From positions 115,554 through 179,553 of the IMG/VR virus record IMGVR_UViG_3300005663_000028: 64,000 nucleotides of DNA; one strand, given 5' to 3'. Shown piece after piece: positions 28,242 through 41,538 of the stretch (its first letter is position 1; the number at the start of each line of letters is the position of its first letter). The stretch comes from a virus. Under the pieces are notes generated by a model that was not told the DNA's origin, did not search any database, and was given only the letters and a program-made list of their open reading frames with translations. The position numbers and the translations under genes were made by a program.

Positions 28242-28427
28242 TTAAGGCTTAAAAGTTTTTCCGATAGAGGGATGTCTCATTATTTCAAATTCAATTGTAT
28301 TTCTTAGGTCGGCCTCAAGTGTATCCAGAAATTCCTTTGAAACGCGACTCATCGGCCTCCCCGCCCGCATTTCCTCAAATCTAACCAAAATGAACTTCTT
28401 GACTGCCGCTCTATTTAGTAGACTCAT
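28242..28427 (-). CDS. Unknown small helical protein
   Basis: 61 aa from the ATG at 28427, which overlaps the DUF2997 stop (TAATG). Helical and basic, no domain recognised. Confidence 0.55.
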   Translation of the reverse strand: MSLLNRAAVKKFILVRFEEMRAGRPMSRVSKEFLDTLEADLRNTIEFEIMRHPSIGKTFKP

Positions 28428-28633
28428 TACCTTCCCCCACACTGAGTTTCCCGCTCCTGAGTTTCCTCTCTTTGGTAATATTCTTCTTTGTCTCGCTGAG
28501 AAACTGTCTCCCCCAAAGCCTCTTCTATCTCACCTATGAAGTGAGCACATTCGGCACCTAGGAATCCTTGTCCATCTATGGAACAATTACCTTCGGTGTC
28601 TATGTCGATGACTATTTTCTTTTCACCTCTCAT
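28427..28633 (-). CDS. DUF2997 family protein
   Basis: 68 aa. It begins KKIVIDIDTEGNCSID, then GFLGAECAHFIGEIEEALG and EEYYQ, matching DUF2997 (a small beta-beta-alpha protein). In cyanobacteria and other bacteria DUF2997 genes commonly lie beside DUF1257 (Ycf35) and a Ycf46-type AAA+ gene; both are also in this window (33.9 and 36.7 kb). Molecular function unknown. Confidence 0.75.
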   Translation of the reverse strand: MRGEKKIVIDIDTEGNCSIDGQGFLGAECAHFIGEIEEALGETVSQRDKEEYYQREETQERETQCGGR

Positions 28634-28646
28634 ATTATTCCTCCGT

Positions 28647-29183
28647 TTAGTACTTCAGTCCTTCGAAGTAAAGGAATCGCTCGTATTCCCCCTTACACCC
28701 ATCTTGTTTAGCTAATTCGTCGCTCGCATCACAGAGTTCTTTAATATCTTGCTTGAATTTAGCTAATTCGATCTGCAATTGGTCGGACGTAAAAACACCC
28801 TTTTTCTTTCTTGCTCCAATCCATGTTTTTTTACTTATTTCTACATCTACGTCCAAAGCAGATATCCACTTAGCTTCGACCCTGATGCCACACTCTTCCC
28901 AAATTCGAACGAGATACGTTCTAGGTTTGAGTAGCCGACGAAGTTCTCTTGCAGCTTCTTTTTTTGTCATGGTTTCTTTCCTAGTTGAAACTCTTGGTAT
29001 GTAAATTGTTTGTATCCCCCTCCTACCTTTTCTTCTCGTAAATGGTTTGTACCAAATTTTTTCACAACCACTTCCCCCACAAGTTGCACATATTACTGCG
29101 GTTCCTTTTGGCTCAGCACACCCAATATATAAACCAGTTCCATCACAATCCCAACATTCTGCTTCTATACTTTCCTGACTCAT
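28647..29183 (-). CDS. Unknown protein with DnaJ-like zinc motif
   Basis: 178 aa. The N-terminus has CWDCDGTG and CATCGGSG, the DnaJ zinc-centre pattern, followed by a basic linker and a helical domain (about 90-178). A chaperone or nucleic-acid-binding role is possible; no family recognised. Confidence 0.6.
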   Translation of the reverse strand: MSQESIEAECWDCDGTGLYIGCAEPKGTAVICATCGGSGCEKIWYKPFTRRKGRRGIQTIYIPRVSTRKETMTKKEAARELRRLLKPRTYLVRIWEECGIRVEAKWISALDVDVEISKKTWIGARKKKGVFTSDQLQIELAKFKQDIKELCDASDELAKQDGCKGEYERFLYFEGLKY

Positions 29184-29237
29184 CGTTTTATTTCTCCAAT
29201 CACTAGGGACAAGGTTCAGATAAGGGCTCTAATTGTC

Positions 29238-29474
29238 TCATAATATACCCCAAGGTGTCATCCAACAATTTCTATAAGCGGCTTGACGAGCCCTTCTCCT
29301 TGCTACGACTAATGACGTACATCTTTTGATTTTACGAACATAAGCCGCTTGTTCTTTCATGTAAGGCAAGTGCCAATCTATCCATTGTTTGTAATTGAGT
29401 TGTCCCAGGCCGAATAAGCATACACCTTCTTCGCAATGACTACTACCATCAAAGATTTTCCAGTTAATTTTCAT
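29238..29474 (-). CDS. Unknown small basic protein
   Basis: 78 aa from MKINWK at 29474 (AAGGATC just upstream). Trp-rich with a basic stretch RRRARQAAYRNCW near the C-terminus. It overlaps the previous gene by 11 bases. A longer in-frame reading to 29672 is out of phase with that gene and was rejected. Confidence 0.55.
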   Translation of the reverse strand: MKINWKIFDGSSHCEEGVCLFGLGQLNYKQWIDWHLPYMKEQAAYVRKIKRCTSLVVARRRARQAAYRNCWMTPWGIL

Positions 29475-29703
29475 GATCCTTATTTTCCACAAGAGCCAAT
29501 AATCTTCTAGCCCATAGAACTTTTCCTGCATTTTGTCCCGCTCTGTATGCCCGCTGGGGAGAGTATTCTGCATAACCACACACTGTACCATTCTTATCCC
29601 TTTTAAGTTGGTCTGACCAACACTGTTTTTCTGCCATCTGCCTAATGTGTTTAACCAATACAATGAACTCATCTGCCATATCTTTATTACGTGCCCATCC
29701 CAT
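29464..29703 (-). CDS. Unknown small protein
   Basis: 79 aa with AAGGAGAAG before the ATG. Helical; contains YSPQRAYRAGQNAGKVLWARR. No domain recognised. Confidence 0.55.
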   Translation of the reverse strand: MGWARNKDMADEFIVLVKHIRQMAEKQCWSDQLKRDKNGTVCGYAEYSPQRAYRAGQNAGKVLWARRLLALVENKDHEN

Positions 29704-29721
29704 TTTTCTTCTCCTTATGAA

Positions 29722-29744
29722 ATTTTTCTGTTTACAGAAAATTT
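29722..29744. repeat. Small AT-rich hairpin between two genes
   Basis: Arms AATTTTTCTG and CAGAAAATT around a short loop. It lies just past the stop of the 29746-29916 gene on the minus strand. It could be a weak terminator, but no T-run follows. Confidence 0.35.
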
Positions 29745-29745
29745 C

Positions 29746-29916
29746 TTATCTAGAGTCTGTGACCCCTACACTTTTAACCCGAACATCTATAATATCAAGA
29801 TCGTCTGCGTCCATTTCTGGAAAAAAGTCAGCCCCTTCAAGAGCATATGTGCCGTTAGCTTCTTCGTCTTCGTGAAGCAAAACATCTAGAACTACTCTAT
29901 AATGTACTTTTCTCAT
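29746..29916 (-). CDS. Unknown small acidic protein
   Basis: 56 aa. It starts MRKVHYRVVLDVLLHEDEE and ends DVRVKSVGVTDSR, with acidic DDLDIIDV. A beta-alpha-beta fold is plausible. GAGAAAAAT precedes the ATG. No family recognised. Confidence 0.55.
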   Translation of the reverse strand: MRKVHYRVVLDVLLHEDEEANGTYALEGADFFPEMDADDLDIIDVRVKSVGVTDSR

Positions 29917-29927
29917 ATTTTTCTCTC

Positions 29928-30149
29928 TTATTTTGTTAAGCCTCTAGCAAACTGTTTCGCATCAGAAAAGCAGAAAAAATCTTGATACCACGATTGGCGT
30001 TTTGGGGAGATAGACACGGAATAATAGAATCTATTTCCGTATGCATTATATTTTCTTATGGCATAACTTCCATTATTCTGGACTAATTTTCCCCTGGAAT
30101 CGTATTCTCTAATCCAAACTGTTTTACTTCTACCTCTAGTTCGAGACAT
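29928..30149 (-). CDS. Unknown small basic protein
   Basis: 73 aa from MSRTRGRSK at 30149, which follows AGGAGG. Arg/Tyr-rich beta segments (FYYSVSISPKRQSWYQ). The start at 30233 was rejected because it overlaps the upstream gene by nearly 100 bases. Confidence 0.55.
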   Translation of the reverse strand: MSRTRGRSKTVWIREYDSRGKLVQNNGSYAIRKYNAYGNRFYYSVSISPKRQSWYQDFFCFSDAKQFARGLTK

Positions 30150-30390
30150 AAAACAAACCTCCTGGAGAAAACTCCTTAATCTCGAACTCAATCGCTTTCT
30201 CACGGTTTTTGTTTTGGTGAAGAATTTTCCCATCTAGAGATAAGACCTGCCAGACTTGTTCGCCTTCATGAAATTCTACGTTTGATGCTTTGTGGACATT
30301 TGTTACTTTACCAATAGCGAACAAGTCGATTTGGTCTGTCCATAAACAGTGAACATCACCTTGGTTATCTATGTCTAAAACCACCTTCAT
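30136..30390 (-). CDS. Unknown small protein
   Basis: 84 aa, beta-rich (MKVVLDIDNQGDVHCLW at the start resembles the DUF2997-like opening of 28427). No firm family. It overlaps the next gene by 14 bases. Confidence 0.55.
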   Translation of the reverse strand: MKVVLDIDNQGDVHCLWTDQIDLFAIGKVTNVHKASNVEFHEGEQVWQVLSLDGKILHQNKNREKAIEFEIKEFSPGGLFYVSN

Positions 30391-30412
30391 CGATCAGACT
30401 CCACTTTTATTT

Positions 30413-30598
30413 CTATGGTTCAATGCAATATACAACTAACGCTACTATAGAAAGCATCCAAGCGACCAAAATAACTAGGGTTATTTTCCAACTAAAAATC
30501 AATCCTAACAAAGCTAAACAGAGTCCTCCCCCAAAAAGCCAAACACAAATAACGGAGTCCCAAATTTTCATGAGTTTCTTTTTTATTTTACTTTTCAT
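30413..30598 (-). CDS. Small two-helix membrane protein
   Basis: 61 aa with a basic N-terminus (KSKIKKKLMK) and two hydrophobic helices (about 17-36 and 39-58). Topology resembles small phage inner-membrane proteins. Function unknown. Its ATG overlaps the end of the amber-interrupted ORF upstream. Confidence 0.6.
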   Translation of the reverse strand: MKSKIKKKLMKIWDSVICVWLFGGGLCLALLGLIFSWKITLVILVAWMLSIVALVVYCIEP

Positions 30599-30749
30599 TT
30601 TGTTGTTCCCAAGCGTAGTGTCCCGTTCCGAAAGGCCCCCACCCTGTTATCCTTGGTGCTGCCTGAAGTGCCGCACCAAGTGTCCAACTATACCAGACAC
30701 ATAACGATAGTAATCCCGTCTAAAAACATACTTGGCCTAATTTTTTCAT
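30588..30749 (-). pseudogene. Small ORF with in-frame TAG at codon 10
   Basis: Reading from the ATG at 30749 (AGGGAA upstream) gives 54 codons ending at TAA 30588, interrupted once by TAG after MKKLGQVCF. The remainder is protein-like (hydrophobic, then GWGPFGTGHYAWEQQNEK), and its end overlaps the next gene's ATG as real genes here do. It may be a nonsense mutant, a sequencing error or a readthrough gene. None of the tRNAs seen reads UAG. Confidence 0.45.
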
Positions 30750-30760
30750 ATTATTTTCCC

Positions 30761-30985
30761 TTAATAGTCCCACATAGGGACAAATCCAAAAACATCGACT
30801 AATTCCGCTAATAGTTCTGGACCTTCTAAACAATTTTCATCATTTTGCATAACAGATTCACCGTTAAAACATTGAGTTTTAATAAAAAATTCCAAAACTT
30901 TTTCAAAGACTTTATTTTTTGTTTCTTGATCATCGTGATACATAAGATTCAATAGCGATTCTCCCTCAAATGTTCTCATTGTCAT
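30761..30985 (-). CDS. Unknown small acidic protein
   Basis: 74 aa, helical and acidic (EKVLEFFIKTQCFNGES), ending VFGFVPMWDY. AAAGGA lies before the ATG. It overlaps the upstream gene by 20 bases. Confidence 0.55.
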   Translation of the reverse strand: MTMRTFEGESLLNLMYHDDQETKNKVFEKVLEFFIKTQCFNGESVMQNDENCLEGPELLAELVDVFGFVPMWDY

Positions 30986-31181
30986 TTTTTATCCTTTCTT
31001 GTTTGTCCATAGCACTTTCAAGGTCTTTCCCCACCGCTTCCCAATCTTTGCGAATAGTATCCTCATCAGTCACAGACAGTATTTTTTCCGTTTCTGCGAA
31101 TGGACGAGGGTTTTCTTTTGGGAAAATACCGATCTGTGACATAGCTTTCCATAGATTTTTCCAGAACTTTTTAAGGGTCAC
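30966..31181 (-). CDS. Unknown small protein
   Basis: 71 aa, helical with many Lys/Glu. No domain recognised. Overlaps the 31178-31420 gene by 4 bases. Confidence 0.55.
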   Translation of the reverse strand: MTLKKFWKNLWKAMSQIGIFPKENPRPFAETEKILSVTDEDTIRKDWEAVGKDLESAMDKQERIKNDNENI

Positions 31182-31420
31182 TTTTTCTTTCCTTCATTAG
31201 CTCTTTTTTCAATTTGTCTAATCTCTTCTTGTGAAAGATATTTGTAAGCAGCCATCCTTTGCTCTTTTGCATATTCTACTAAACTACCACAGCTAGCCCC
31301 ACCAAAAACACCTCTGACAAAAAGTTGTGTTCTTGCCGACAGATCGTCTGTATCGTATTTGTCTATAACGAATGTGGTGAATTCAGCTAATGCATAGGCT
31401 ATTTTATCGACAGACATCAT
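31178..31420 (-). CDS. Unknown small helical protein
   Basis: 80 aa, fully helical, ending in Lys-rich KRANEGKKK. No family recognised. The start (ATG at 31420 or 31417) overlaps the end of the GMP reductase-like gene. Confidence 0.55.
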   Translation of the reverse strand: MMSVDKIAYALAEFTTFVIDKYDTDDLSARTQLFVRGVFGGASCGSLVEYAKEQRMAAYKYLSQEEIRQIEKRANEGKKK

Positions 31421-32930
31421 TAATTGTCCCTTTTTGGTTTGTTATAGTAAAATCGACATTTGTTCGAAATTCATTAATATCAGAACATCCAGCATACGAT
31501 ATTCCCGACCTTAAAGAACCTGCATATCTTTTAAGTAACTTTTCTAATGATTCTCCTAGTGGAAGGTATTTTACGCAACCTTCCGGGGCGTCATTACTTA
31601 CTGAGCCTCTCCATTTTTCTTGTACTAATCTACTGGCCATTCCTGCATAGATTTTTTCTCCGTGTTCATTTAACAAGGCGGCACTTTCCGGGCATGAAGC
31701 AAAAATCTTACCAGCCATTACACTCGATGAGCCTGCGGCTATTGCCTTAACAAAGTCTGCTGGTTCCCTAATTCCTCCATCGCTAATTATTGGTAATCCG
31801 TAGGTTCTAGAGGCTGTTATACATTTCTGGATGGCTGAAAATTGTTTCTCCGTTACACCTGCCGTATTTTTGGTTTCACAAACAAATCCTTGTGCTATCC
31901 CAACCTTTACGGCCGATGCAAAGTCTGCGCTTTCTGCGAACAAACCTGGGTTAATTGTATTTCCAACTACGATATGAACGTTTGGTGCAAACTGTTTAAT
32001 TAGACGGCCAAGTTCTATAACAGGTTCACAATATCCATGCGCTACATCAATAAAAATAATATTAGCATTAGCCCGAATGAGCTTCTTGGCTAGATCAAAT
32101 TGTGAAACACCGATACCTACCGAAACCGCTACCCATCTGTTGTTTTTATGTATTTGGTTAGTCCATTTTTCCAACACGTTATCAGAAGAGGCCCTATGGA
32201 GAACCCCCATAGCTCCTAATTTTTCTAATAAAATACAAAATTCAGGGTTGGTTACAGTGCTCATGTTAGAAGCAATTAATGGAATATCTAATTCAACACC
32301 TCTTATTATTTCGGATACAATATTTACATTAGACCGTGATTGAACTACTGATTTTTTTTGAAGAATACTGACGTCTTCGAATCCGAGAGATATTGGTGTT
32401 GTCGACATTTTGATAGAGGGGTTAATAAAATATTCACAAGTACTATGGTCAAAATGAATAATACCCCGACCGACGAGATCAAAAGCAATTTTTTCCAATT
32501 TTGAATGTAATTTTCTATGGTTGGAATTACTTGATACGGCACAGAGGTTTGTCAATGAGTTATCGTCTTTTCGGCCGTTAATGTGGTGGATTATCCACCC
32601 ATTATCTATCAAATTAAACCCCGTGGTTTCTTCCATAACTAGATGGTGTTCCCCAATATAGCGTTTTCGTCTTTCATCCCAAATCATTATGTAATTACCA
32701 GGCTTACCGGCCTTGATTTTCCTACCGAATCTGGTTTTTATTTTTTGGTTGTCCCTGCTTCTGGAGCATGGTCCACACAAATCCTTTCCCCATTTTTCCC
32801 TAGAATCTTTGGCTTTTCTCCACTGTGGTTTACTTTCTGTCCCACAAGAGTCACATATCTTTAATACTAGGTATGTTCTCTTTAATGTTGAAAAGTCGTT
32901 TATTGTTTTATTATCAAGTGTTTTGATCAT
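31404..32930 (-). CDS. HNH endonuclease fused to GMP reductase/IMP dehydrogenase-like enzyme
   Basis: 508 aa. Residues 1-170 are an HNH domain: CDSCG and CGPC zinc pairs, then EHHLVMEE, HHINGRKDDNSLTNL and HRKLHSK. Residues 175-508 are a full TIM-barrel GMPR/IMPDH without CBS domains, starting LGFEDVSILQKKS, with SNMSTVTN, FIDVAHGY, and the active-site loop VGIAQGFVCETKNTAG (C351). GMP reductase is about this length. No ribosome site precedes M175, so one fused polypeptide is likely. Its ATG overlaps the stop of a 38-codon ORF that looks like another GMPR/IMPDH N-terminus. Confidence 0.85.
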   Translation of the reverse strand: MIKTLDNKTINDFSTLKRTYLVLKICDSCGTESKPQWRKAKDSREKWGKDLCGPCSRSRDNQKIKTRFGRKIKAGKPGNYIMIWDERRKRYIGEHHLVMEETTGFNLIDNGWIIHHINGRKDDNSLTNLCAVSSNSNHRKLHSKLEKIAFDLVGRGIIHFDHSTCEYFINPSIKMSTTPISLGFEDVSILQKKSVVQSRSNVNIVSEIIRGVELDIPLIASNMSTVTNPEFCILLEKLGAMGVLHRASSDNVLEKWTNQIHKNNRWVAVSVGIGVSQFDLAKKLIRANANIIFIDVAHGYCEPVIELGRLIKQFAPNVHIVVGNTINPGLFAESADFASAVKVGIAQGFVCETKNTAGVTEKQFSAIQKCITASRTYGLPIISDGGIREPADFVKAIAAGSSSVMAGKIFASCPESAALLNEHGEKIYAGMASRLVQEKWRGSVSNDAPEGCVKYLPLGESLEKLLKRYAGSLRSGISYAGCSDINEFRTNVDFTITNQKGTINDVCR

Positions 32931-33043
32931 GTTGTTGCTTCAGCTAGTCTGATAATTATATTCTGGGTCTTGTTCGAATTCAGAGAAGGTCGTTGCGGGA
33001 CCAGCAAGATGTCGTTAAAACAAAGATCGTGTTGTTCAGTCAT
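32927..33043 (-). pseudogene. Orphan N-terminal fragment of a GMP reductase/IMP dehydrogenase gene
   Basis: 38 aa. LCFNDILLVPQRPSLNS matches the universal IMPDH/GMPR start (usually FDDVLL-P-RS), then the frame ends. The TGA overlaps the ATG of the HNH-fused enzyme, which carries its own different version of the same segment. This looks like the 5' remnant of a resident gene displaced by an HNH-bearing copy. The ATG at 33043 overlaps the previous stop (TAATG). Confidence 0.65.
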
Positions 33044-33300
33044 TAGTCAATTTTCCATTTCTTGTTTTTCCCAAGGGTTAGTCCTAACGCGAAAGCTCTC
33101 ACTTCGTCTAGAGATTGAAATACCCCCATTTTAGTTTCACATCTTGGGTCTTGGCTATCCATCATAGACTGCCATTTGTTTATATACCTACTATCTCCCA
33201 CAATAAAGTTTTGATTATTTAAGATATCAAGGAAATAACAGTTTCTTCTCAGTTCGTCTTGTAATCGACGAAATCTAATTACCGTGGTAGAGTCGTACAT
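33043..33300 (-). CDS. Unknown small protein
   Basis: 85 aa. Contains RFRRLQDELRRNCYFLDIL and a C-terminal GVFQSLDEVRAFALGLTLG helix. No family recognised. Confidence 0.55.
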   Translation of the reverse strand: MYDSTTVIRFRRLQDELRRNCYFLDILNNQNFIVGDSRYINKWQSMMDSQDPRCETKMGVFQSLDEVRAFALGLTLGKNKKWKID

Positions 33301-33312
33301 TTGTTTCTCTCC

Positions 33313-33723
33313 TTAAAGTTTTATTTTTCTTACCAACGAATATTTCTTTTTGTCTGTTGGTTTCGGTTTGGGATTTTTGACGGCGTACTCGGATGCATAA
33401 TTTTTACCACCATGCCCTTCAACCACATTCAATACACTGTCTCCCGGTGCCGCTGCTGGTGCCCCCGCACACATTTTGAAAAATTGTTCTGGACTTATTA
33501 AGTCTATTCCTAAATATCGAGCAATTTTTGCCTTAGCAGACATGCTTGCCGGGTCAGCTATAACCAGTATAGTTGTTTTACTAGTTACTGTTTTGGTTGT
33601 TGACGCATTGGCAGCTACTGCTATGGCCTCCATTTCGCTACGAGGTTTAGGACTTTTACCTGTGAAGCAGAATATTGCTGGCTTTATGGCTCCAGTACTG
33701 TCATTCAAAAATTGCATTGGCAT
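33313..33723 (-). CDS. BRCT-domain protein
   Basis: About 136 aa. A single BRCT domain of the DNA-ligase type: IFCFTGKSPKPRSEMEAIA, then TILVIADPASMSAKAKIARYLGIDLISPEQF. The C-terminal 45 residues are basic and probably disordered. BRCT domains bind DNA ends or phosphoproteins; here it may serve replication or repair. No ligase catalytic domain is attached. Start is ATG 33723; an upstream TTG frame also exists. Confidence 0.83.
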   Translation of the reverse strand: MPMQFLNDSTGAIKPAIFCFTGKSPKPRSEMEAIAVAANASTTKTVTSKTTILVIADPASMSAKAKIARYLGIDLISPEQFFKMCAGAPAAAPGDSVLNVVEGHGGKNYASEYAVKNPKPKPTDKKKYSLVRKIKL

Positions 33724-33725
33724 TT

Positions 33726-33929
33726 CTATTCTGGTCCCCAACTGTATGACTTAAGAACCTTTCCATCTCTTTTAACCTCGAACGATCCACTACCATCTGC
33801 ATTTATAGTGGTTGAGGAGAATGTTCTCCAAGTATCCGCTTTACCCGTAGCCGATTGACTACCGAGTCTACTAGACCCTTTACACCTATTTGCATCATAT
33901 CCAAAAGCTCTTGCTCTACATTTAGCCAT
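33726..33929 (-). CDS. Unknown small protein
   Basis: 67 aa. Basic N-terminus (MAKCRARAFGYDANRCKGSSR), then beta strands (TINADGSGSFEVKRDGKVL). No family recognised. It lies between the BRCT and DUF1257 genes. Confidence 0.55.
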   Translation of the reverse strand: MAKCRARAFGYDANRCKGSSRLGSQSATGKADTWRTFSSTTINADGSGSFEVKRDGKVLKSYSWGPE

Positions 33930-33940
33930 AACAATTCTCC

Positions 33941-34357
33941 TTACCTATATCCAGTAATCTCAACCCTTTGGTGACCACTCTCAGGGCATCGCTCTCTAGT
34001 GACGGTCCGCCCCATCTCTTCTTGGTCTAGCTTCAGTTTATGAAACGCATAATTTTGCCTGAGTTGCCCAACCCATTTTGCCCCATACCTAGTGGAGTCA
34101 TATTCTGAGATAATGGCTTGATATGTTTCTTCTTCGGTTTTTGCGAAACCCAAATCATTAGACATGTCTCCGACATGTCTCTTTCGGATTATGATATGGG
34201 CCTTCTCTGCCCTCTCGTCATCTTTCCAGCCAACGAGAGACTGAGGGGTAGCATGTACCTCTATTTGGTCGAGGCTCCACTTACCAGTTTCCATTAAAGC
34301 AGCGACTAATGCTGTTTTGTCGGTAAAAACGGTCTTTACTATGCAATATCTTGACAC
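33941..34357 (-). CDS. DUF1257 / Ycf35 family protein
   Basis: 138 aa from a GTG at 34357 with GGAG seven bases upstream. It has VKTVFTDKTALVAALME, IEVHATPQSLVGW, AHIIIRKRHVG, SNDLGFAKTEEETYQAII and YGAKWVGQLRQNYAFHK, the full-length DUF1257 (Ycf35) pattern. Ycf35 is conserved in cyanobacteria, plastids and many bacteria and often neighbours DUF2997 and Ycf46-like AAA+ genes. Its biochemical role is unknown. Confidence 0.87.
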   Translation of the reverse strand: MSRYCIVKTVFTDKTALVAALMETGKWSLDQIEVHATPQSLVGWKDDERAEKAHIIIRKRHVGDMSNDLGFAKTEEETYQAIISEYDSTRYGAKWVGQLRQNYAFHKLKLDQEEMGRTVTRERCPESGHQRVEITGYR

Positions 34358-34358
34358 G

Positions 34359-35390
34359 TTATTCTCCTTGGTTTTTGAGGTACCGGGCTCTTGCAAAAGC
34401 ATTTAGGGGTGGAATTACCACCCCATTACATTCACAATTATTCTGTAATTCTCCACAGTCTGAGCAAAATGAGTCATCGCAACGACAGGGATAAAAATCA
34501 CAATCACCACACCATTCGTCGTCGTCATTATCATTCCATTTCTTTATCCCCGCACGAGGGTACCATTTACAGACAGTGGAATCATTTTGAAGGACATCAC
34601 CGCATCTGCACCTACGTGGAGATACCACTTTGGGATCGTCAGGACAGACACAGTCGAATCCGTGGCAATCTTCACATAGTTCGTCGCAGATACACACATC
34701 TTCGAGACAAACATCGCACCAAGGATCATTTTCATCACTGTCGTCTAGACAATCGGTACACCATACCTCTCCCTTTTCACGATCCATAATACCACAAAGA
34801 TTGCACCCGGCGTTATCTTTGTCGAGCCCGCATAAACATTGACAATGAACATCGTCTACGAAACCACAATCACAGTCAAGGAAATCATCTAGACAGCTTT
34901 TACAGATGAATCTGCCGTCAGTTGTTTTCCTTGCAATACTACAAACGGAACATCCCCTACCCTCACAGCAGTCACTTACGCTATCACTACATTCGATACA
35001 ACAATCATTGTCTTCGTCACAGAGACAGTCACAATCATGGTCACTATTGTGACCCGAGCAATCAATGAATCTTTGGTGACATTTATCGCATGTGTCGTCT
35101 GCTATACATTCTTCGCATAGTTTTTTGTTACCATCAGCCAAACTTCCGTTACAATCGACACAAGTTCCTCGATAGACTTCGTCAGCATCAGCTTTGCACT
35201 GATCATCTTGACTACATTCGGGACACTCACATCGACCAGCCATAAACTCGTTAATACTGGTCAATAAATCATGGATCGCTATCGCGTCGGGAGTGTTGAC
35301 CCCTTCTGATGTGCGAATCCAACCGTGGTCCCATATTCTTTGGAATTCCTGAAATAAAGACGTCGCTACTTGAATATTACTTTTTACCAT
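34359..35390 (-). CDS. Extremely cysteine- and aspartate-rich protein
   Basis: 343 aa. After an ordinary helical start (1-50), nearly every line has CxxC or CxC pairs (for example CECPEC, CDKCHQ, CLCDEDNDCC, CICDELCEDC). Cys and Asp together make up a large share of residues 53-325, implying many zinc or other metal ions. The protein is not obviously one known family; RING-like or ferredoxin-like repeats are possible. It adjoins DUF1257 directly and lies two genes from the AAA+ gene, so it may belong to that set. Confidence 0.7.
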   Translation of the reverse strand: MVKSNIQVATSLFQEFQRIWDHGWIRTSEGVNTPDAIAIHDLLTSINEFMAGRCECPECSQDDQCKADADEVYRGTCVDCNGSLADGNKKLCEECIADDTCDKCHQRFIDCSGHNSDHDCDCLCDEDNDCCIECSDSVSDCCEGRGCSVCSIARKTTDGRFICKSCLDDFLDCDCGFVDDVHCQCLCGLDKDNAGCNLCGIMDREKGEVWCTDCLDDSDENDPWCDVCLEDVCICDELCEDCHGFDCVCPDDPKVVSPRRCRCGDVLQNDSTVCKWYPRAGIKKWNDNDDDEWCGDCDFYPCRCDDSFCSDCGELQNNCECNGVVIPPLNAFARARYLKNQGE

Positions 35391-35401
35391 TTTTTCTCTC
35401 C

Positions 35402-35662
35402 TTAAAGTTCCGAGGGTTTTTGAAATTTACGTGGTTTAGGATTTTTGTTTTCCCATTGTAGTAAGCCTGTTTTTATTTCTGCCTCCATTTGTTCTTTTAG
35501 TTTTTGAACTATTTTTAATCTTTGTTTATGCTTTTTATCATCCCATTTAACAAACTCTGATGTGAGCTTTTTCTTTCCGTTACAGTACCCACACCGTACA
35601 GAGCGGTGCCCCAACCTTGTTTTTCCTTGTCCGTAACACTCGGGACAATTCCTAATTTTCAT
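35402..35662 (-). CDS. Small zinc-finger protein (DnaJ-like)
   Basis: 86 aa. N-terminal CPECYGQGKTRLGHRSVRC then GYCNGKK gives one zinc site; the remainder is a basic helix. It overlaps the DUF3150-like gene by 4 bases. Confidence 0.6.
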   Translation of the reverse strand: MKIRNCPECYGQGKTRLGHRSVRCGYCNGKKKLTSEFVKWDDKKHKQRLKIVQKLKEQMEAEIKTGLLQWENKNPKPRKFQKPSEL

Positions 35663-36651
35663 AATATGATCCTTCGTTTGAGTTCCCCAAGGAACCCACC
35701 TGCATTTTCACCCTCTGCCGCCGCCTTTTGTCTAATCGAGTTTAGCGCATTTGTTACTCCATCCTGCACTGTGGTTGATTCGAAATCTTCAGGAGATGCT
35801 GTAGAGTCCAGAAACATTTCGCTAAACTCTGTGAGCATTTTTTCTATGTCTTGGTCTTCAAAGATATTCATCTTCCGGAAACGATCGACGTACTTGCGAT
35901 AGCTGGTAATTGACCTAGCTGTTAGTTTCTTGCTCTTCTCCTCATCCTTGTAAGGTTGGCCACTGACACGGGCGGTCATCATGTCACAGAATTCGATCGT
36001 TTCTTGTCGCATGGCGGCTACATATTCGCCTACGAATTTCTCCACCTCTTTCTGCATTTGTTGTCGAAGTTCTTTTTCTCGTTCTATCTGGATTTTTTGT
36101 TTCGCCGAAACTTCCTCGACTGTGGTTTCTTGGATTGATCCAATCCCAGCTATTTGGAACAAATACCAATCGAACTTATATCGCTTTCTGAGGTGCTTTG
36201 TGCTTGCCGGGTAGTTTCCCTTGAGACATTTTTCCCAAAAATCAGGATGATCCTCCTTTATTTTACCAACGGTGTCGTCGAATCTGACCATGAAGCTGTC
36301 TACCCTATTGAAAAATTCCTCTTTGAGGTCTTTCAACTGTTGCTCTACGGTAGTTAGAATGTTGTTCGGTACAAAATGGGCGCTAGCCACGCAAAACGGG
36401 ATTGACCATTGTTCCAGAATCTTCCTTGCTTTTTGACTTATCTGGTCAAAGGCTTGAAGCTCTTCCTTTGGCACCATTAATTTTCTGCCGAGGTTGACTA
36501 TGTCGCTTGGAAGATTCTCTTGGTTTTCATATCCCATCTTGACGAGGTCTGCTCGTGTTAGCATTTTGCGTCCGCTCCACACCCCTATCTTAAGATTGAC
36601 GAGTGTTCCAAGTTCAAACAGATTGATTGTGTTTTTGTCTGTCGTTGTCAT
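35659..36651 (-). CDS. DUF3150-like protein
   Basis: 330 aa. The opening ELGTLVNLKIGVWSGRKML, the later LGRKLMVPKEEL, and the long central coiled coil (about 105-140, 180-225) resemble DUF3150 proteins of plasmids and integrative elements, which also sit beside AAA+ ATPases. The match is from memory and moderate. It lies directly downstream of the Ycf46-type AAA+ gene and may be its partner. Confidence 0.6.
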   Translation of the reverse strand: MTTTDKNTINLFELGTLVNLKIGVWSGRKMLTRADLVKMGYENQENLPSDIVNLGRKLMVPKEELQAFDQISQKARKILEQWSIPFCVASAHFVPNNILTTVEQQLKDLKEEFFNRVDSFMVRFDDTVGKIKEDHPDFWEKCLKGNYPASTKHLRKRYKFDWYLFQIAGIGSIQETTVEEVSAKQKIQIEREKELRQQMQKEVEKFVGEYVAAMRQETIEFCDMMTARVSGQPYKDEEKSKKLTARSITSYRKYVDRFRKMNIFEDQDIEKMLTEFSEMFLDSTASPEDFESTTVQDGVTNALNSIRQKAAAEGENAGGFLGELKRRIIL

Positions 36652-36660
36652 TTTTTTATC

Positions 36661-38244
36661 CTAGTTTGAGTTAGGGTCTCCATTACTCAATACAATTTTT
36701 CTACCTTCTGCTTTTGGTTGAGGATTCTCCTTATGGGGATTTGCGGGCTTCGCGTGTTTTTTGCACCACATTCTTATTGAACCAATACGATCCGATTCAG
36801 TTACTGATAGTGGTATAATTTCTCCTATTGCTTGTATCAGGTGTTTTTGCTTAAGCTTTTTATCATTTCCAAATGCTATCTTTAAGGACACCTTAACTAT
36901 TTGTTCTATATCGGCTCCCGTACACCCAGGAGTGGCAATTGCCAGTTTTGTAATATCTAAATCTTTTGATATTTTATTTCTTTTGGAAAGATGGATATTG
37001 AATATTTCTTGACGCTCTCCTTCGCTCGGCAGGTCTAATCCAAAAATTTCATCGAACCGCCCTTTGCGACAAAATTCTGGAGGCAGTGACTGGACCTGAT
37101 TAGCTGTCGCTATTACATAGACAGGGGATGTTTTATCATTTAGCCATTTCAGAAATATTCCAAAGACCCTACGAGAAGAACCTCCATCTGAATCTCCGGT
37201 TCCTCCGAAGCCTTTTTCTATCTCGTCCAAAACAAGTACACAAGGAGCGATAGTCTCAAGCATCCTGATAGCATCTCTCATATTAGACTCTGATTCCCCA
37301 ACATACTTATTCATAATACTACCAACGTCGAGCGAAATAAGTGGTAAGCCAAGTTCAGAAGCAACGGCCAGAGAGAGTAATGTTTTTCCACAGCCAGGAA
37401 TACCGACGAGCATCAATCCTTTAGGAAACTCAATACCAAAATCCCTTGCCTCTTGGGTGAAGCAGGGTTGATCTAATCGAATGTGTTGTTTCAACGCTTC
37501 ATAACCACCAACACTATCTAAACCACCTTCTGGGGGTTCTATGTAGGTAAGCAACCCAGACGCACGAATTATGGCAGCTTTTTCCCTAATTATTGTTTGG
37601 ACTGCATCGACATTCAGGTCTTTATGTTTTCTCAACGCCAACGCAACTCTGTCTGCCACCTGCTGAGTAATCATTCCTTGACACGCATCGATAATTTGTG
37701 GTAAGATTTCTGGATCGGGTTCAAATTTACCCCCGTCTTCTGTTTCCACACTACGACATACATAAGAGATTCGTTCTGCTATCTGCTTTTTGTCTGGTAG
37801 ACTGAATTCAATAGTTGTTATGTCATGAAGTAACTGTTTGGGTACATGGAAATCCGGTCCGACGAAAACGATGGTTTGTTCTACGGACGATATTATTTTG
37901 CGCAGATCATCTAAATATCCTATGGCCATGTCGTGTTTTGAGTACTTGCCTTGTTGTAGATAGAGTCCAAAATCTCTTAAAACACAAACGGTTTTCTCTG
38001 GGAACCCAAGAATTGCTGGTAAATGATCCTCGACGGGCACCTTCGACTTAGGAGCCCCGCTTACCGCTATTCCTCCTTCGTCAATCCATCCCTGGGAGAT
38101 GGACCACACAAAGACTTTCCTGTCAATTTCTGCCGCCGCCTCTGCAATTTCAGCAATAGCCCTGTCTTTTTCAAAGGTATCTACATTCAACAAAGCATGA
38201 CCCGAAAGTATGTAATCGATAAGGTCTTCTTTGAAATTTCCCAT
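36661..38244 (-). CDS. Ycf46-type AAA+ ATPase
   Basis: 527 aa. The N-terminal domain (1-235) has the Ycf46 features VFVWSISQGW, CVLRDFGLYL, TIVFVGPDFHVP and the following all-helical part. The AAA+ core has GIPGCGKT (281-288), Walker B CVLVLDE (D340, E341), a GRFDEIF box and sensor 2 helix. Ycf46 proteins are conserved in cyanobacteria and plastids, function largely unknown. Here it heads a unit with DUF3150-like, zinc-finger, Cys-rich and Ycf35 genes. Confidence 0.88.
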   Translation of the reverse strand: MGNFKEDLIDYILSGHALLNVDTFEKDRAIAEIAEAAAEIDRKVFVWSISQGWIDEGGIAVSGAPKSKVPVEDHLPAILGFPEKTVCVLRDFGLYLQQGKYSKHDMAIGYLDDLRKIISSVEQTIVFVGPDFHVPKQLLHDITTIEFSLPDKKQIAERISYVCRSVETEDGGKFEPDPEILPQIIDACQGMITQQVADRVALALRKHKDLNVDAVQTIIREKAAIIRASGLLTYIEPPEGGLDSVGGYEALKQHIRLDQPCFTQEARDFGIEFPKGLMLVGIPGCGKTLLSLAVASELGLPLISLDVGSIMNKYVGESESNMRDAIRMLETIAPCVLVLDEIEKGFGGTGDSDGGSSRRVFGIFLKWLNDKTSPVYVIATANQVQSLPPEFCRKGRFDEIFGLDLPSEGERQEIFNIHLSKRNKISKDLDITKLAIATPGCTGADIEQIVKVSLKIAFGNDKKLKQKHLIQAIGEIIPLSVTESDRIGSIRMWCKKHAKPANPHKENPQPKAEGRKIVLSNGDPNSN

Positions 38245-38279: not shown

Positions 38280-38301
38280 GGAATCTTGTACTCAAGATTC
38301 C
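38280..38301 (-). terminator. Probable terminator
   Basis: Perfect 9-bp stem GGAATCTTG / CAAGATTCC with a 4-base loop, followed on the minus strand by TTTAATTAA. It overlaps the stop of the 38292-38507 gene. The T-run is imperfect. Confidence 0.6.
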
Positions 38302-38507
38302 AGGAGTGAACGGACTTGGAAAAGCTCATTTCGAGTAGAGAAGACATCAAACCCCAAATCTTTCACCAGTAACGATAGGTGCTCCAATAACACCTCTATA
38401 TCATCCTCGTGTTTGGCAGATTTCTTTCTGCTTATCAGACTATCAGGCCCGATATCCTCTCGATTAAGGATTTCCCTCAATTTGGCTTTTATTTGCTTCT
38501 GATCCAT
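38292..38507 (-). CDS. Unknown small helical protein
   Basis: 71 aa, helical and charged. The promoter -10 box at 38514-38519 ends only about 6 bases before the ATG (38507), so the mRNA may be leaderless or nearly so. Terminator right after. No family recognised. Confidence 0.55.
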   Translation of the reverse strand: MDQKQIKAKLREILNREDIGPDSLISRKKSAKHEDDIEVLLEHLSLLVKDLGFDVFSTRNELFQVRSLLES

Positions 38508-38510
38508 CAC

Positions 38511-40878: not shown

Positions 40879-41538
40879 CTAGTCAATCATTTTCTCTCTG
40901 GTTTCGTAGTAGTCGCATTGTGAGAAATGTTTGTATGGAGATTCACCCAATGGGCACCAATGTATTATTCCGTTTTCGTCGACAAACATATTGTCGTTCA
41001 TAGCGTTGTCACACATAGCTACGTCTTGATATTTGCTTGGCACGTTGTTATCATACGCCCTACCAACTAATACAATGTTCAGACCCAAGTCCCCAGCGAA
41101 TTGCACAAAAATACGATGCTTATGTTTGAATGATTGTTTTAGTTTTTCAAAAGCTTCTTGTCCGTATCCATCTTTGGAATGAAATTGTGATTGAGATATT
41201 CTAATGGTAATATTTTGAGTATCTAAGCTCAAAATAACACGAACAAATTCATCAAGGGTTGCTTTTTGTTTTACGAATACACCATTTGTCATTATGCCTC
41301 CCTGATAATGGCCTTGAAAGGTGTTTCTCATTAGATCGCCGTAATTCGGAATTAAAGATACTTCTCCACCCATTACGGATATATTTGAATCCACTCCTTT
41401 AGGTAACCATTCATTTAATTGTTGGGACATCTTTTCCGTCATGTGGGTCTTATTTGATGGGCCAGACCTGAACATGCAATGATCACACGTCTCGTTGCAA
41501 AAGTTCGTTAATCTGATCGTTGTTTCGTGTTTGGACAT
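40879..41538 (-). CDS. Radical SAM protein
   Basis: 219 aa. The 4Fe-4S motif CNETCDHC (C14, C18, C21), the GGE (57-59) and a shortened barrel are present. The C-terminus has Cys residues (VAMCDNAMN, HWCPLG, FSQCDY) like a reduced SPASM domain, suggesting a second cluster and a peptide substrate. No obvious precursor peptide gene adjoins, although the 36-aa ORF downstream is worth checking. Confidence 0.85.
   Translation of the reverse strand: MSKHETTIRLTNFCNETCDHCMFRSGPSNKTHMTEKMSQQLNEWLPKGVDSNISVMGGEVSLIPNYGDLMRNTFQGHYQGGIMTNGVFVKQKATLDEFVRVILSLDTQNITIRISQSQFHSKDGYGQEAFEKLKQSFKHKHRIFVQFAGDLGLNIVLVGRAYDNNVPSKYQDVAMCDNAMNDNMFVDENGIIHWCPLGESPYKHFSQCDYYETREKMID

Follow-up and report, generated by a model that had tools for sequence, protein, structure and literature searches.

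A Ycf46-type AAA+ module of phages and Verrucomicrobia: a probable chaperone for the handling of DNA by mobile elements

Ycf46 and Ycf35 carried the name of "hypothetical chloroplast frame" for decades, and the trio that they form with DUF2997 is known mainly as a set of nameless cyanobacterial genes. What purpose do these genes serve in a phage? The question is raised by a stretch of 64,000 nucleotides (the window, in whose coordinates the positions below are given) that corresponds to positions 115554–179553 of the 179,553-bp virus record IMGVR_UViG_3300005663_000028. The source is probably a large T4-like tailed phage, because the record also encodes DnaB, UvsX, exonucleases, ribonucleotide reductase and an RNA ligase/tail-fibre attachment protein. 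Five genes of the window, all on the minus strand, are the subject of this analysis: a Ycf46-type AAA+ ATPase, DUF3150, DUF1257 (the Ycf35 family), DUF2997 and a small protein that we refer to as c8. We are nearly certain that they represent a real, conserved multi-protein AAA+ module. In many unrelated phages, and in Verrucomicrobia too, the same set is met next to genes of DNA replication. Its role is therefore probably not in photosynthesis but that of a chaperone with which mobile elements handle DNA. The module itself is well supported; that its client belongs to DNA metabolism we infer from the gene neighbourhood.

The motor gene (36661–38244) encodes a protein of 527 residues, which matches the Pfam AAA family at 4.3e-31 (108.5 bits against a gathering score of 21.2) and consists of an N-terminal domain and a single active AAA domain. 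The match to Ycf46 is over the full length, the N-terminal non-catalytic domain included: the phage Ycf46-like family phrog_8638 aligns with residues 4–510 (E 1.5e-124). Walker A (GIPGCGK, from residue 281), the pore loop (KYVGESE, from 313), Walker B (VLVLDE, from 336) and the arginine finger (RKGRFDE, from 393) are all intact. The nearest solved structures are those of the second ATPase domain of Cdc48/p97. The best Pfam and NCBIfam matches are to the classic AAA family and to CDC48/FtsH-type models, with no MoxR model among them.

Directly downstream of the motor gene lies that of the DUF3150 protein (35659–36651; 330 residues; PF11348, 1.4e-23), whose 83.9 bits exceed the gathering score of 24.9. 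The DUF1257 protein (33941–34357; 138 residues; PF06868, 2.3e-9, 37.8 bits against 22.2) occupies an open frame of 33941–34402, within which we placed the start at the GTG at 34357, behind the ribosome-binding site AAGGAG. The protein then begins MSRYCIVKT, equivalent to the MSHFTTIKT start of its relatives, and this start abolishes the apparent overlap with a neighbouring Cys-rich gene. The DUF2997 protein (28427–28633; 68 residues; PF11211, 4.7e-9, 36.4 bits against 24.1) carries a G-x-x-C motif (GFLGAEC) that is present in 31 of 32 viral members of the family. The profile searches thereby bear out the first-pass annotation of this DNA, which had named Ycf46, DUF1257 and DUF2997. The fifth member, c8 (30136–30390; 84 residues; phrog_38408-like, 7.9e-6), surfaced when the same-strand neighbours of the AAA gene were clustered, and it is found in 17 viral loci. 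DUF1257 and DUF2997 each match just one of 14 control genomes (Synechococcus in both cases), and for this reason it is very unlikely that the two came together in a single phage by chance.

The order AAA-DUF3150-DUF1257-c8-DUF2997 is retained in the nearest relatives of the window, and the 5.5 kb that separate DUF1257 from DUF2997 contain the conserved c8 along with lineage-specific genes. The set had been described as loosely scattered, which is true of this gap but not of the families in general, as the two genes lie within 150 bp of each other in 17 of 30 viral pairs (all 30 on the same strand) and in 44 of 51 genome loci.

Relatives of the AAA protein came from about 85 loci of viruses or phages, a few near-duplicates included (L003/L081, L035/L045). 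DUF1257 was present in 33 of the 85, and in every one of these the AAA gene was nearby and on the same strand, in keeping with the initial claim that the three families recur together; the strands likewise agreed in all 40 genome loci in which the AAA gene and DUF1257 were both present. The phage version of the trio is real as well, its core being found in many unrelated phages. A tblastn search with the AAA protein matched 133 of 50,697 phage records. A phage DUF1257 query matched 21 phage records, at least 15 of which were also among the AAA matches listed. Among 50 whole records searched with the Pfam models, DUF1257 was found in 22, DUF2997 in 29 and DUF3150 in 16. Kept in all seven of the closest viral relatives and matched by its Pfam model, DUF3150 belongs to the set, as had been proposed. 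A short-pattern scan of IMG/VR for relatives of the window DUF1257 and DUF3150 proteins returned none; alignment of the AAA protein found the relatives instead. As an internal negative control, 47 viral loci with an AAA protein of another group gave no match to DUF1257, DUF2997 or DUF3150. Two clusters of AAA neighbours (1 and 4) that had appeared as conserved families were dropped as shadow frames of the AAA gene, and a siphovirus protein ("X") considered as a DUF3150 relative showed no relation in a profile comparison.

The AAA-DUF1257-DUF2997 core is carried beside replication genes by isolated phages of Rhizobium, Aeromonas, Pseudomonas and Rhodobacter. The order here is AAA, a protein of about 200 residues, DUF1257, DUF2997 and other small genes, shortly before the replication genes, with a DnaB-like helicase and DNA polymerase I located 4–6 kb downstream.

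When bacterial genomes were scanned with aligned DUF1257 proteins of plasmids and phages, 61 loci from many phyla were obtained. Verrucomicrobia (Luteolibacter, and bins named Akkermansia among them) have operons of exactly the five families of the window, in the order DUF3150, DUF1257, DUF2997, c8, AAA; c8 is thus seen outside phages too, in most of these loci close behind DUF2997. Their neighbours are RadC, a CHC2/Toprim primase, a WGR-DNA ligase and an N6-methylase-like protein. The first-pass annotation had hoped that a phage version would help to define the minimal system; this is more than the trio, as the form seen in the window phage and in Verrucomicrobia also includes DUF3150 and c8.

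The relationship to cyanobacteria is more distant. The cyanobacterial gene cluster of the trio is partly on record, as DUF2997-ycf35-fed7 ("cluster g", with the ferredoxin Fed7; PMC4284462), and ycf35 and ycf46 were lost along similar lines in red algal plastids (PMC5940233). The cyanobacterial and plastid set and that of the window have the three families and the full-length Ycf46 architecture in common, and in the cyanobacterial trio DUF1257 and DUF2997 are adjacent. They differ in that the window adds DUF3150 and c8, and no ferredoxin was recognized in its set. The window AAA protein is 32% identical to a cyanobacterial plasmid homologue. In a quick tree, rooted by midpoint only, it falls within a viral clade of eight rows (support 100), which is nested in a set of 48 rows (support 97) made up of phages and Verrucomicrobia-type loci, with the cyanobacterial copies outside; the related phages have DNA-replication neighbours.

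In other bacteria the core has different companions: Hsp70 in 17 loci, HEAT or WD40 repeat proteins in 12, a radical SAM 4Fe-4S protein in 11, an FGE-sulfatase-like protein in 6 and GrpE in 5. These numbers are based on sequence clusters, from each of which one or two proteins were checked against Pfam. Such loci, from Chloroflexota, Nitrospirota, Desulfobacterota and others, share the linked AAA, DUF1257 and DUF2997 genes with the window, but where the window has DUF3150 and c8 they have genes for Hsp70, GrpE, HEAT and radical SAM proteins. DUF3150 and c8 were not seen in the cyanobacterial and Hsp70-type cellular loci, and the Hsp70-type AAA proteins fall in another group of the tree. Operons that combine Ycf46-AAA, DUF1257, DUF2997, Hsp70, HEAT-repeat, radical SAM (Fer4_12) and FGE-sulfatase genes (L105, L107, L108, L117 and others) occur in Nitrospirota, Desulfobacterota, Chloroflexota and Actinomycetota and are apparently undescribed. 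AAA-DUF1257-DUF2997 is also seen in Asgard-type archaea (L111, L127), and on a Geminocystis plasmid (L090, 5945–12452) DUF1257-DUF2997-AAA is situated among defence-like genes (an AAA_21/RloB pair, a zeta toxin and DUF4007).

The component with the strongest influence on the shape of the mechanism that we propose is DUF3150, by virtue of its sharing with a second motor. It was found in 153 plasmid records. In the four plasmid regions that were read (L153–L156), AAA or MoxR is upstream and a vWA protein downstream of DUF3150, directly adjacent in two of them, and either SSB, RecT and a lambda-type exonuclease, or another nuclease, or a toprim protein are encoded nearby. These MoxR/AAA-DUF3150-vWA operons, on conjugative or mobilizable plasmids, are apparently undescribed. 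Because DUF3150 is their middle gene too, it is, by its gene context, a partner common to two AAA+ systems on mobile elements. The plasmid operons and the window both place DUF3150 beside an AAA+ motor, and the operons lie near recombination or primase genes, with a motor-plus-adaptor logic that is presumably that of the window. They differ in having MoxR for Ycf46 and a vWA protein where the window has DUF1257-DUF2997; no vWA match was obtained among the ten module and neighbour proteins of the window scanned with Pfam. The AlphaFold2 model of the window DUF3150 protein is mostly helical (pLDDT 82, pTM 0.72). Its Foldseek search against the PDB gave nothing under E 0.001, the structural matches being generic helical bundles, and a PDB sequence search gave nothing below E 0.05. 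We found no mention of DUF3150 in the open-access papers searched. The protein is likely an adaptor or scaffold.

DUF1257 and DUF2997 probably form a heterodimer, as suggested by modeling. In several loci the two genes are adjacent and in the same frame, and we modeled such a pair with the intervening stop codon read as glycine, on an alignment of 67 rows, of which 13 span both proteins. In-frame adjacent pairs were chosen, as free DUF2997 chains had been misplaced when they were aligned together with a phage fusion (L017). AlphaFold2 gave the cyanobacterial read-through pair a mean pLDDT of 91.5 and a pTM of 0.85, with weak parts only in the linker and the C-terminal tail; the interaction that the first-pass annotation had put forward as a check is in this related pair predicted to occur. 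The structural matches extend across the two chains as across a single domain, with about 95 residues aligned. By VIA-align, the top match is to spermine synthase in its N-terminal domain (Z 11.1, rmsd 2.9, 96 residues), a likeness of the modeled fold only, uninformative on function. For the pair, Foldseek against the PDB found nothing under E 0.001, and for DUF1257 and DUF2997 a PDB sequence search found nothing below E 0.05. The phage contig L017 itself encodes both domains in a single frame of 213 residues. This is a probable natural fusion and is graded no higher because its DUF2997 part, in the right place, rests on a Pfam E of 0.007 and a G-x-x-C...LE.aLG pattern; a stricter domain search did not recover it.

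Classic AAA proteins grip polypeptide with an aromatic pore loop. By homology to Cdc48/p97, the Ycf46-type protein would form an ATP-driven ring and would pull client proteins through it by means of its conserved aromatic loop (KYVG). The DUF1257-DUF2997 pair, a composite alpha/beta heterodimer in the model, would be a dedicated adaptor or co-chaperone of this motor. The helical DUF3150 protein may couple the motor to clients or partner subunits and, if gene order is a guide, would do the same job for the other motor of the plasmid operons, while the conserved c8 may be a small accessory subunit. The clients would most likely be proteins of the DNA replication, recombination or repair complexes of the element itself, a choice made because of the recurring neighbour genes. 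We give about even chances to this full mechanism, one AAA+ remodelling machine with dedicated adaptors and clients in DNA replication, recombination and repair. Somewhat more tentatively, we suggest that DUF1257-DUF2997 may be a new class of AAA+ co-chaperone that replaces vWA, that DUF3150 may be a coupling subunit shared by two different motors (Ycf46 and MoxR), and that phages and other mobile elements may remodel their own replication and recombination complexes with an interchangeable machine.

Several observations weigh against this proposal. No module member has a biochemically established function in the present setting. The modeled pair is cyanobacterial, not that of the window, and its pLDDT and pTM come without a decoy control or PAE. 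The module of the window is about 13 kb from the replication genes (at 1–16 kb), and its nearest neighbours are mostly small uncharacterized genes. The sole mutant phenotype that we found, a lower activity of the carbonic anhydrase EcaB in a Synechocystis ycf46 mutant (Jiang 2015, as cited in PMC7496141), points elsewhere. Lastly, in cells the set is found with Hsp70, HEAT, radical SAM and FGE-sulfatase genes, such that the client may differ or the DNA context may be incidental.

Could the machine serve the virion instead, as a motor with adaptors that helps to fold or assemble tail or head proteins? AAA+ chaperone/co-chaperone pairs have a precedent in this role: MoxR-vWA pairs of jumbo phages were proposed to act in virion assembly, and such a role is reported for Acidianus two-tailed virus (PMC7824862). 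Phage AAA+/co-chaperone pairs are a kind already known; the phage Ycf46 set is apparently undescribed, in that no published account of the five genes was found in the open-access literature, though a description elsewhere is possible. The MoxR-vWA pairs and the window module are alike as phage-encoded AAA+ motors with a dedicated co-chaperone, and they differ in AAA clade, in neighbours and in the vWA protein, which the window set does without. The siphovirus module, located between the lysis/tail block and the replication block, would suit a virion role. However, the same five families occur in Verrucomicrobia contigs that lack a terminase match (none in nine, most of them short). Two of them are longer (54 and 73 kb); their genes are ordinary ones for Verrucomicrobia, together with the RadC, RNase H and PD-(D/E)XK families, and the families listed for them include none of virions. 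Moreover, DUF3150 stands beside another motor on conjugative or mobilizable plasmids, which make no virions. We consider the virion role unlikely.

The module may also be one of counter-defence or conflict: its motor may dismantle the defence complexes of the host, or the set may itself be a defence system that the phage carries. This we hold to be a little less probable still. The AAA domain does resemble IetA of the IetAS defence system, but the IetA models match residues 266–480, the AAA domain, only (NCBIfam IetA, 86 bits against a cut-off of 510), and no protease was recognized in the set by Pfam. The cellular loci with Hsp70, GrpE, HEAT and FGE-sulfatase genes are partly like the NTP-dependent conflict systems (PMC7159879), and one cyanobacterial plasmid copy is beside RloB and DUF4007 genes. 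In phages, on the other hand, the module was not seen with any recurring toxin, nuclease or protease effector, and several lineages have it near replication genes.

A chaperone for the insertion of metal or iron-sulphur cofactors, here for a phage enzyme, is improbable. Such a maturation system would make use of the DUF2997 cysteine, nearly invariant in its G-x-x-C motif, and of the ferredoxin or radical SAM proteins linked to the set in cells, and the AAA+ protein CoxD acts in metal-cluster assembly (PMC3471820). Yet a single cysteine per protein makes a weak site, no Fe-S protein was seen recurring with the set in phages, and the Cys-rich gene that the window does have is without relatives in the viral loci. 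Finally, auxiliary metabolic genes acquired from a host that photosynthesizes, with a function in photosynthesis, carbon uptake or redox, are very improbable here: the three families are indeed known from cyanobacteria and plastids, with Fed7 linked in the former (PMC4284462), and two marine virus records with DUF2997-DUF1257 and no AAA may be such a case, but the tree, which sets the window AAA protein deep in the phage and Verrucomicrobia group and apart from the cyanobacterial copies, largely refutes this origin, the hosts of most isolated phages with the set are not photosynthetic, and DUF3150 and c8 were not found in cyanobacterial loci.

Departures from the five-gene form of this putative DNA-handling chaperone were also seen. 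The 47 viral loci that served as the negative control, Corndog-type actinophages included, mostly have c3 and then the 113-residue c2 after the AAA gene; these AAA proteins form a tree group of their own, distinct from that of the window. The Corndog-type module (AAA, c3 and c2; L005 gp100–gp97) resembles the window in its full-length Ycf46-type AAA protein followed by a DUF3150-like c3, and differs in that c2 replaces DUF1257 and DUF2997 in nearly all members. The match of c3 to the DUF3150 profile covers the N-terminal part (E 8e-4, probability 25%). That c3 stands in for DUF3150 is suggested by locus L074, where c3 is found together with DUF1257 and DUF2997. This module occupies 9180–12372 of L005 and is seen in some 46 further viral loci (L024, L026, L028 and others). 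Its c2 protein (MPCDT...CxYR...HSHDGG.TWH) has invariant-looking Cys and His residues and no Pfam name; considered as a DUF1257 or DUF2997 relative, it showed no relation in a profile comparison. In two marine virus single-cell records (L086 and L087, 8832–9381 in each; one Kyanoviridae), the DUF2997 and DUF1257 genes overlap, and neither whole record contains a Ycf46-like AAA gene; these are possibly host-derived genes that use the motor of the host. A small protein with a SWIM-like C-x-C...C-x-H motif is found beside the AAA module in six loci (L013, L016, L018, L025, L035, L045).

The remaining neighbours in the window are mostly restricted in distribution; those given below with both ends are on the minus strand. 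An 86-residue zinc-finger-like protein with four Cys (35402–35662) and a very Cys-rich acidic protein (34359–35390; 51 Cys in 343 residues) are real open frames, which the first-pass annotation had counted with the set; they are probably not part of the system, because neither has a relative in the viral loci. The Cys-rich protein, without a Pfam or PHROG match, has 13 CxxC and 11 CxC motifs and looks like a metal-binding or multi-zinc-knuckle protein. A BRCT-domain protein (33313–33741; Pfam 1.6e-8) is conserved in the clade of the window only, with relatives in L007–L010 and L012; in L035/L045 the relative forms the C-terminus of phage LigA. This stand-alone protein resembles the C-terminus of the phage NAD-dependent DNA ligase, and L009 has both LigA and a separate BRCT gene. 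A GMP-reductase/IMP-dehydrogenase-like protein (31404–32930; NCBIfam) with an HNH-like N-terminal extension is conserved in the clade of the window but outside the core; its relatives (L007–L012, L034) retain the reductase part. Small genes at 28242, 29746, 38292, 38564 and 39041 are conserved mainly inside the clade. The first of these (28242–28442), directly downstream of DUF2997, encodes 66 residues and is kept in the three nearest relatives (L007, L008, L009); the third (38292–38510), directly upstream of the AAA gene, encodes 72 residues and is kept in six clade relatives. A consensus scan placed a terminator-like hairpin with a 9-bp stem and a T-rich tail (38280–38301) between this gene and the AAA gene, the count of such hairpins across the region being near shuffle expectation. 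A radical-SAM-like protein (CNETCDHC) is encoded at 40879–41538, about 3 kb from the AAA gene.

The module ties Ycf46 and Ycf35 to the unexplained MoxR-DUF3150-vWA operons of conjugative plasmids. The phages of Rhizobium, Aeromonas, Pseudomonas and Rhodobacter offer culturable models outside cyanobacterial hosts, in which knock-out and purification are possible. With Ycf46 and Ycf35 placed in a widespread AAA+ machine, the viral form of which stands beside DNA-replication genes in several lineages, these proteins are taken out of the confines of photosynthesis.

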